A stretch of DNA of 64,000 bases from Gemmatimonas aurantiaca T-27 (GTDB taxonomy: Bacteria; Gemmatimonadota; Gemmatimonadetes; Gemmatimonadales; Gemmatimonadaceae), in the NCBI RefSeq assembly GCF_000010305.1, contig NC_012489.1, positions 2,859,646 through 2,923,645 of the forward strand, written 5' to 3'. The notes under the pieces are model-generated. The model saw nothing but the letters and a program-made list of their open reading frames with translations, was not told where the DNA came from and did not search any database. Position numbers and translations under genes: made by a program. Of the stretch, positions 2,313-59,175 are shown piece by piece; the first letter of the stretch is position 1, and every line of letters begins with the position of its first letter.

Positions 2313-2341
2313 TGGTCGCACCGCCCTCGTGGGACTAGCTT
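2313..2341 (+). promoter_or_regulatory. Candidate promoter of the ECF sigma gene
   Basis: TGGTCG (2313-2318), 17-base spacer, TAGCTT (2336-2341). The start codon at 2353 lies 11 bases after the -10 box with no Shine-Dalgarno sequence, so the mRNA would be leaderless or nearly so. The same TAGCTT box at the same spacing occurs before etfD, etfB and the atp genes. Confidence 0.45.
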
Positions 2342-11292: not shown

Positions 11293-12817
<1,525 letters not shown>

Positions 12818-24922: not shown

Positions 24923-26977
24923 TCAGGCGGATCCCGCCGGCGCCGCGAGCTTCGACGCCACGATCTCCGAGATATCGAACACCGGCACTTCCTTGCCGGC
25001 ACCCGCCACACCGTCGTTGATCATCGTCATGCAGAACGGGCACGCCACGGCAATCTGATCGGCCCCCGTCTCCAGAAGTTCTTCGCTGCGCTCCACGTTG
25101 ACGCGCTTGCCGTCGTTCTCTTCCATCCACATGCGGCCACCACCGGCGCCACAGCAGAGGCCACGGCTCTTGGTGCGCTTGGGCTCCACCAGCTCCACGA
25201 TCGGCAGCGCCTTCTTCAGTGTGTTGCGCGGCGCATCGTAGATCTCGTTGTAGCGACCGAGGTAGCACGAATCATGATAGGCCACCTTGAGGCGCTGACC
25301 GTGCTCCGTTTCGAGCGGCACGCGGCCTTCGCCCAGCAGGCGCTCGATGTACTCGGTGTGGTGAATGACTTCGTAGTGTCCACCCAGATCGGGGAATTCC
25401 TTGCCCATCTGGTGGAAGCAGTGCGGGCAGAACGTGACGATCGTCTTGACCTGATAGCCGTCGAGCGTCTCGATCACGCCCTTGGCGAGCATCTGATACA
25501 GGTACTCGTTGCCCATACGACGCGCGGGGTCACCGTGACACGTCTCTTCCTGACCGAGGATGGCGAACTTCACATCAGCGGCCTGCAGGATGCGCGCGAA
25601 CGCCACGGTGATCTTCTTCGCACGGTCGTCGAAGGAGCCCATGCAGCCCACCCAGAACAGGATATCGGGCTTCTCACCGGCGGCCGCCATCTCGCCCATC
25701 GTGGGGATGTCCATGCCTTCCGCCCACTTTTCGCGGTCGGATGCGCTGAATGCCCACGGGCTGCCGTTGCGCTCGAGGCTCGTGAGCGCGGGCTGCAGCT
25801 CCTCGGGGAAGCGCGACTCCATGAGCATCAGATCGCGGCGCAGCTCGTTGATGATCTCGAGCTGATCGATGCTCACCGGGCACTCCTGCACGCAGGCGCG
25901 GCAGCTCGTGCAGGCCCACAGCTCTTCTTCCGTGATCCAGTCGTCGAGCAGGTTCTTGTCCAGCACCGCCTGCTGTTCTTCGGTGGCCGTGCCGCCGCCC
26001 GCTGCGATGGCGTCGAGCGTGCTCGCCTTTTCGGTCAGGCGTGCGCGCGTCTTCACCACGATCATGCGCGGCGAGAGCAGCTTGCCGGTGGTGTTGGCCG
26101 GGCACGCTGCGGTGCAGCGCCCACACTCGGTGCAGGAATAGCCGTCGAGCAGATTCTTCCACGACAGGTGCTCGATATCGGCGGCGCCAAACTGCTCGGC
26201 GTCTTCGGCCTCGAGATCCATCGGCTTCATGGCGCCGATCCGCCCCGGGCCGCTCGTGTTCGAGAGCCAGACGTTGATCAGCGACGACAGCACGTGGAGG
26301 TGCTTCGACTTCGGCAGGTGGTTGAGGAACCACAGGATGAGCACCGCGTGAATCCACCAGCTCACCCGCGCCATGATGTGCGCCGTTTCCGGCGACATGC
26401 CACTGAACAGTGGCAGCAACATGGACGTGATGGCGCGCCCCGCGAGGTCGGCGCCGGGCTGCTTGGCTTCGCCAACAAACACGAGCAGCAGCGTGATCAT
26501 GAGCGTGGCGATCACGCCCAGGATGAGCACCGCTTCGCCACTGTGTACGGCGTCGACCGTGAAACGGCGCGGCTTGAGCACCAACCGGCGATACAGCAGG
26601 TATCCGACGGGCATCAGCACGAAGACCGCAAAGATCTCCTGCGAGAACACGTACGGCACGTACAGCATGCGCGGCAGGATCACGCCCCAGGTGAACGGCG
26701 TGTAGAGCCCCTGAATCCAGATCTCGAGCGTGCCGAGACCGAGAACGCAGAAGCCCCAGAACACCAGGGCGTGCATGAGGCCACCGAACGGGTCGCGCAG
26801 GATCTTCGTCTGTGCGAGGCCGATCAGCAGGAAATTTTTCGTACGGATGTCGGGGTGATCGGTACGGTCTTCGGGCTTGGCGAGCTTCAGCCATCGCACG
26901 AGCCGTTGCGCCTGCTGGGCGAACATCCAGAAGCCGCCGGCGAGGATCACCGCGAACACGAGGTTGGACAGGGTCAT
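24923..26977 (-). CDS. etfD: Membrane Fe-S electron carrier from ETF to quinone, EtfD type
   Basis: 684 residues. The N-terminal third has about five membrane helices in a NarI-like pattern. Next comes a ferredoxin-like domain with two 4Fe-4S motifs, CTECGRCTAACP and CTSCRACVQECP, then two CCG domains of the heterodisulfide reductase type (FCPHCFHQMG; CCGAGGGRMW). This domain order is that of mycobacterial EtfD, which takes electrons from EtfBA during fatty-acid oxidation and passes them to menaquinone, instead of the flavoprotein ETF-QO. etfA and etfB lie just upstream, supporting the role. The ATG is only six bases after a TTGTCG-N17-TAGCTT promoter. Confidence 0.9.
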   Translation of the reverse strand: MTLSNLVFAVILAGGFWMFAQQAQRLVRWLKLAKPEDRTDHPDIRTKNFLLIGLAQTKILRDPFGGLMHALVFWGFCVLGLGTLEIWIQGLYTPFTWGVILPRMLYVPYVFSQEIFAVFVLMPVGYLLYRRLVLKPRRFTVDAVHSGEAVLILGVIATLMITLLLVFVGEAKQPGADLAGRAITSMLLPLFSGMSPETAHIMARVSWWIHAVLILWFLNHLPKSKHLHVLSSLINVWLSNTSGPGRIGAMKPMDLEAEDAEQFGAADIEHLSWKNLLDGYSCTECGRCTAACPANTTGKLLSPRMIVVKTRARLTEKASTLDAIAAGGGTATEEQQAVLDKNLLDDWITEEELWACTSCRACVQECPVSIDQLEIINELRRDLMLMESRFPEELQPALTSLERNGSPWAFSASDREKWAEGMDIPTMGEMAAAGEKPDILFWVGCMGSFDDRAKKITVAFARILQAADVKFAILGQEETCHGDPARRMGNEYLYQMLAKGVIETLDGYQVKTIVTFCPHCFHQMGKEFPDLGGHYEVIHHTEYIERLLGEGRVPLETEHGQRLKVAYHDSCYLGRYNEIYDAPRNTLKKALPIVELVEPKRTKSRGLCCGAGGGRMWMEENDGKRVNVERSEELLETGADQIAVACPFCMTMINDGVAGAGKEVPVFDISEIVASKLAAPAGSA

Positions 26978-26983
26978 GGCGCG

Positions 26984-27012
26984 AAGCTAGACCGGGAGAG
27001 GAGTCGCGACAA
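26984..27012 (-). promoter_or_regulatory. etfD promoter, probably leaderless
   Basis: Minus strand: TTGTCG (27012-27007), 17-base spacer, TAGCTT (26989-26984). The etfD ATG at 26977 follows after six bases; there is no ribosome-binding sequence. Confidence 0.55.
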
Positions 27013-27056
27013 GCGCATGGCGGCCGGAGCCGGACATGGCATTCGCGGCGAGGGGC

Positions 27057-27090
27057 AAAACAGAGCCCCACCGCCTCGCGGCGATGGGGC
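27057..27090 (-). terminator. Terminator after etfA
   Basis: GCCCCA (27065-27070) and CGCC pair with GGCG and TGGGGC (27085-27090) around a TCGC loop with one internal mismatch; the minus strand then reads CTGTTTTGCC. etfBA and etfD are therefore separate transcripts at least in part. Confidence 0.65.
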
Positions 27091-27107
27091 CTGTGTGCTG
27101 CGGAAAA

Positions 27108-28855: not shown

Positions 28856-28904
28856 CGCGGTCGCTCCGTTCGAGAGTCATGGAGAAAACAACCAGTCACG
28901 AGGG

Positions 28905-28933
28905 AAGCTAGAGAGCGTCCCCCCGTCGGGCAA
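28905..28933 (-). promoter_or_regulatory. etfBA promoter
   Basis: Minus strand: TTGCCC (28933-28928), 17-base spacer, TAGCTT (28910-28905). The same -10 box precedes etfD, the atp genes and the sigma gene. Here the GTG start is about 50 bases downstream and has a ribosome site. Confidence 0.5.
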
Positions 28934-59146: not shown

Positions 59147-59175
59147 AAGCTAGAGGCTTGTGAAATTTTTCGCAA
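59147..59175 (-). promoter_or_regulatory. atp F0 operon promoter, probably leaderless
   Basis: Minus strand: TTGCGA (59175-59170), 17-base spacer, TAGCTT (59152-59147). The atpZ ATG at 59136 follows after ten bases, so the first transcript base is at or near the start codon. Confidence 0.55.

Follow-up and report, generated by a model that had tools for sequence, protein, structure and literature searches.

Does a −10-like box that ends six bases before a start codon mean that the mRNA begins at, or next to, its first codon? The question is raised by the sequence in front of an etfD-type gene of Gemmatimonas aurantiaca T-27. The gene lies in a window of 64,000 nt, that is, the whole stretch of DNA analysed (positions 2,859,646–2,923,645 of NC_012489.1; genome size 4.64 Mb). 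A sequence-only reading had proposed −35/−10 pairs ending 6, 10, 11 and 5 nt before the ATG codons of etfD, atpZ, an ECF sigma gene and guaB, all four without a Shine–Dalgarno sequence, as well as a comparable promoter with a longer leader and a ribosome site in front of etfB. Pairs and spacings were confirmed throughout (Table 1). The 5–11 nt available before the four ATG codons contain no Shine–Dalgarno-like sequence, and for etfB both the distant box and a GGAG are present.

Table 1. Genes, promoters and associated sequence features in the window.
Feature	Position	Strand	Basis and remarks
etfD-type gene for a 684-aa membrane protein, heterodisulfide-reductase-like / Fe-S oxidoreductase	24923..26977	−	ORF, translation; ATG 26977–26975
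etfD promoter region, TTGTCG-N17-TAGCTT-N6-ATG	26978..27012	−	ATG from 26977
etfD −35, TTGTCG	27007..27012	−	TTGT invariant, 14 loci
etfD −10, TAGCTT, 6 nt before ATG	26984..26989	−	CTAG-TT invariant, 14 loci
Intrinsic-terminator-like hairpin between etfA and etfD	27064..27091	−	fold z −2.8
etfB promoter, TTGCCC-N17-TAGCTT, leadered comparison case	28905..28933	−	conserved in most near relatives; 49 nt up to GTG (28933–28855)
etfB Shine–Dalgarno GGAG, 8 nt before GTG	28864..28867	−	sequence and conservation
guaB, IMP dehydrogenase, 496 aa	11293..12783	−	TIGR01302 above cut-off
guaB promoter, TTGATT-N17-TACTCT with a 5-nt gap to the ATG (12783)	12789..12817	−	conserved box; to ATG, 12817–12783
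Gene for an ECF-type sigma factor (sigma-70 family), 200 aa	2353..2955	+	TIGR02937 above cut-off
ECF sigma promoter, TGGTCG-N17-TAGCTT with an 11-nt gap to the ATG (2353)	2313..2341	+	genus and genus g24 only; to ATG, 2313–2353
atpZ promoter, TTGCGA-N17-TAGCTT with a 10-nt gap to the ATG (59136)	59147..59175	−	orthologue conservation; to ATG, 59175–59136
Palindrome TTGCGAAAAATTTCACAA, a probable Rex operator spanning the −35 and the spacer of atpZ	59158..59175	−	kept in the majority of family genomes

The motif TTGNNN-N17-TAGCTT occurs three times in the window compared to 0.04 expected from dinucleotide shuffles. With the −35 element placed at 16–18 bp, the TTG is fully present in etfD, while the other window promoters match with drift. 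A generic E. coli-type promoter scan detected none of the window promoters, and Rfam gave no matches within the window. In NCBIfam, EtfD showed weak matches to Fe-S oxidoreductases, all below cut-off, and EtfA and EtfB matched electron-transfer flavoprotein models under the respective cut-offs.

As the pattern had been picked after the sites were seen, we turned to DNA beyond the window for testing. The own-genome sample consisted of sixty 20-kb segments at even spacing (1.2 Mb, 26% of the genome). Since a first gene caller clipped signal peptides, boxes followed by a start codon were counted at each distance free of annotation, with the mean at 14–40 nt as background, and gene-based comparisons used starts without a nearby alternative. 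TANNTT-N6-ATG was found 28 times compared to 6.8 (sd 2.2) expected, with a sharp peak at 6 nt, and TAGNTT-N6-ATG 12 times compared to 1.3; 24 of the 28 TANNTT-N6 sites have an ATG that opens a coding ORF. In the same 1.2 Mb no peak after the TANNTT box was observed for GTG, TTG or CTG starts. GTG is also used by mycobacterial leaderless genes. When gapped patterns were ranked by their positional enrichment before likely ATG codons, TA..TT at 6 nt came first and GGAG at 5 nt next; before GTG neither of the two stood out in this ranking. A 300 kb control from E. coli K-12 gave 102 sites at 5–7 nt with 94 expected and no peak, so the counting method itself does not produce one. In the 1.2 Mb sample, the tabulation of box-to-start-codon distances that had been suggested as a check revealed a peak specific to ATG; whole-genome pattern searches supplemented the sample.

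The general signal is TANNTT about 6 nt before ATG. The TAGCTT box, described in the sequence-only reading as the shared element, is indeed present in etfD, atpZ and the sigma gene but is one variant of this signal, and the exact form TTG-N20-TAGCTT-N3-13-ATG is rare, with five sites genome-wide, two of them inside the window. A reversed-pattern control (8 vs 5 sites) was discarded, as TTCGAT, the hexamer in reverse, is much more frequent across the Gemmatimonas genome. For the wider pattern TANNNT at 5–9 nt before ATG, the excess amounts to about 62 in 1.2 Mb. Scaled to the genome, and with crude gene calls, this corresponds to an estimated 240 genes or roughly 6% of the total, which we take to be some four thousand. 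Of 114 ATG genes that head a transcription unit and whose start is unambiguous, 20 carry TANNNT at 5–9 nt compared to about 4 expected from other distances. Judged from their N-termini, the matches likely include dnaX, hisS, aroC, alaS, smpB, hslV, apt, uvrA, lpd and queC, in accordance with a housekeeping character.

In principle, the AT-rich box could be a translation signal, for instance a site for ribosomal protein S1, located in a longer leader that is transcribed from further upstream. An AT-rich bias at −20 to −10 may stem from Pribnow boxes but also from S1 sites (PMC5397173), and most boxes lack an obvious −35: an exact TTG accompanies only about a tenth of the family boxes, most of which have a degenerate −35 or none. 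Among 61 matches in the 1.2 Mb sample none had a TTG at the fixed distance of 17 bp, and enrichment appeared only in the larger family-wide count. There, in 59 family genomes, TTG was found 16–18 bp upstream of TAGNTT-N6-ATG in 164 cases compared to 39 at the control distance of 26–28 bp. The signal is, moreover, locked to 5–7 nt and to TANNTT, it is missing before GTG, and it is depleted inside operons, with an operon-internal share of 10/60 for the matches and 329/860 for comparison (p = 0.0008). Matches are mainly first genes of transcription units; ten are still operon-internal by the crude gene calls. At the etf locus this box also acts for etfB, at a distance of 49 nt, and the terminator-like hairpin between etfA and etfD indicates that etfD is probably a separate transcription unit. 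Operon-internal depletion, the TTG at 16–18 bp and the etfB case together lead us to read the boxes as −10 elements, and a translation signal appears quite improbable.

A second alternative accepts the boxes as genuine −10 elements and places the true start codons further downstream, so that ordinary leaders would exist and the N-termini would have been misread. Start calls are uncertain in a GC-rich genome, and the N-termini of GuaB vary among orthologues. The alignments, however, leave little room for this explanation, which we consider very unlikely. Upstream of etfD, an alignment of 14 Gemmatimonas-type loci shows only TTGT, CTAG-TT, a G-C pair and the start region to be invariant. The distance from box to ATG is N6 in 13 of them and N7 in one, and the ATG itself is conserved in all 14 along with the box. 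For guaB, 26 of 27 orthologues in family genomes have TANNNT upstream of an in-frame ATG at a distance of exactly 5 nt (controls 0, 4 and 0), and despite their different N-terminal lengths the ATG stays exactly 5 nt past the box. The enrichment specific to ATG at 6 nt points in the same direction.

A chance origin of the four cases, picked from a large window, is hardly credible: although the pattern was chosen post hoc and its exact TTG plus TAGCTT form is rare, an equal excess is found outside the window and in other genomes and three of the four cases are widely conserved, so that chance is already contradicted by the out-of-window tests, with the possible exception of the sigma gene. Its box was found in 4 of 29 orthologues (controls 3, 2 and 1), confined to Gemmatimonas and one near genus. 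With conservation in close relatives only and numbers near the control counts, the sigma gene is the weaker example.

The atpZ promoter is better conserved: 20 of 29 orthologues have TANNNT upstream of an in-frame ATG at a distance of 7–11 nt (controls 1, 0 and 0). AtpZ itself gave no NCBIfam matches, and its name is derived from gene position and appearance. The operator consensus of the redox regulator Rex is of the TTGTGAA-N4-TTCACAA type. A Rex-controlled atpZ promoter is expected to overlap a palindrome of this type, and the genome to encode a Rex protein; both features were found. Besides the palindrome in the window (59158–59175, minus strand), sites occur at positions 2199247, 844112 and 1984718 of the genome (G000:C1; L207, L210 and L211). 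Only one site is perfect for the pattern on both strands, and it lies directly before the only Rex-type gene found. Imperfect matches stand in front of two genes whose products read as ATP synthase alpha and NuoA. The palindromes at rex, atpZ, ATP synthase alpha and nuoA probably represent a Rex redox regulon for respiration and ATP synthesis. Because the atpZ −35 lies inside the palindrome, its conservation may be owed in part to Rex.

The elements, their spacing, their conservation and the genome-wide enrichment are direct observations. Taken as promoters, the TAGCTT/TANNTT boxes are very probably housekeeping sigma-70-type −10 elements from which transcription would start at the ATG or within about 5 nt of it. 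RNA polymerase would recognise the hexamer as −10. At sigma-70 promoters initiation takes place about 7 nt after the −10 hexamer. From this rule and the box spacing we infer the start positions: the predicted +1 falls on or beside the A of the ATG in etfD (N6) and guaB (N5), and 4–5 nt before the ATG in atpZ (N10) and the sigma gene (N11). The mRNAs of the latter two probably carry leaders of 4–5 nt rather than none. The ribosome may then start at a 5′-terminal or near-terminal AUG without Shine–Dalgarno contact, a loading mode that is likewise inferred. This would constitute a standing second route for first-in-operon genes, limited to AUG, beside Shine–Dalgarno initiation as in etfB. The earlier proposal that housekeeping genes of this organism often begin transcription at the start codon is supported with qualifications. 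Leaderless or near-leaderless mRNAs are the best reading of the locked box, the −35, the operon and the orthologue evidence and of the large number of apparently housekeeping genes in the match set, but "often" is too strong for about 6% of the genes.

To follow the signal in relatives, TAGNTT-N6-ATG was compared with TAGNTT-N20-ATG over 121 genomes, using this one control distance instead of the 27 of the own-genome sample. The counts were 46 vs 8 in the own genome, 302 vs 40 in the same genus and 956 vs 149 in the rest of the family, giving 1304 vs 197 for the Gemmatimonas family in total (42 genomes). The rest of the order showed 690 vs 177 and the rest of the class 798 vs 381, and an N6 excess was present in 115 of 116 genomes of the class. 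In one family of another class the excess is weak (116 vs 100); five genomes were sampled there, the background is higher and a different −10 spelling is possible. On balance we lean towards AUG-only leaderless initiation being an ancestral, maintained trait of one Gemmatimonadota class, used for core genes such as guaB and the leader gene of ATP synthase. In a sister class it would be largely absent. At atpZ it would be joined with an overlaid Rex operator.

Several well-studied groups show related features. Similar to Gemmatimonas, leaderless genes of Deinococcus-Thermus have a −10-like motif few bp before the ATG, occur beside GGAG-led genes and often lack a clear −35, which is optional there (PMC12340547). 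In that phylum, however, about 30% of the ORFs are concerned, the motif is TANNNT and the genes are experimentally validated (PMC12340547), whereas in Gemmatimonas an estimated 6% with TANNTT is known from sequence alone. An in-silico survey of 953 bacteria used an equal type of signal and inference, and gives average leaderless shares of about 39% for Deinococcus-Thermus and 13.3% for Acidobacteria (PMC3160421). Actinobacteria resemble Gemmatimonas in their high GC content and in a TA-box right before the start without Shine–Dalgarno sequence (PMC3160421, PMC3898074, PMC4633059). They differ in the share of genes, about 19–20% in the survey (PMC3160421) compared to roughly 6%, and in Gemmatimonas the signal is found at ATG only. 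This restriction fits leaderless initiation, in which an AUG located at the 5′ end or close to it is recognised by the ribosome (reviewed in PMC9031893).

The mechanism as such is thus already known (PMC3160421, PMC12340547, PMC3898074) and is newly documented here in Gemmatimonas. For the phylum it seems hardly described. The main text of the 953-genome survey does not name Gemmatimonadetes, though its group of other bacteria may include one genome (PMC3160421). In the open-access literature nothing was found that links leaderless transcripts to Gemmatimonas, although a Gemmatimonas genome may be listed in supplementary tables of the surveys from 2011 and 2025; co-mention of leaderless and Gemmatimonadetes concerned, in one case, the anti-Shine–Dalgarno of the phylum and not leaderless genes there. 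The description as an under-described trait of the phylum is in line with this literature, but has to be narrowed to the one class for which the trait is shown. One more phylum is thereby added to the few in which a leaderless signal is seen at genome scale. The promoter rule, TANNTT 5–7 nt before ATG, can aid the annotation of start codons in a phylum that has few cultures and for which a promoter map was not found. With etfB (leadered, GTG) and etfD (leaderless, ATG), one locus offers a matched pair with nearly the same promoter that is suited for tests of leaderless translation outside Actinobacteria and Deinococcus.

Some minor observations concern individual loci. In Gemmatimonas-type genomes etfD probably forms its own unit with terminator and promoter, whereas in many other relatives it starts within a few bases of the etfA stop codon without such a promoter (loci compared: window 26978–27107, L009, L010, L014–L016, L018 and L019). 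The TAGCTT box of etfB is kept together with a CGGAGC ribosome site in most near relatives. Near or downstream of the etfB −10 some relatives carry a GTGAA-N-TTCAC palindrome (L013, L023, L024, L025, L029, L031 and L043) that is absent in the window. The gene reading as hisS is preceded by TTGCAGGTCGATCCGCTGGCTCGGTAGCTT-N6-ATG (G000:C1 2083300–2083338, minus strand, in L077), and very similar promoters occur in several other family genomes. Two contigs titled Candidatus Kuenenia (L017) and Candidatus Uhrbacteria (L033) contain Gemmatimonadota-like etf loci with 81% and 62% identity, respectively, and are probably mislabelled or misbinned.
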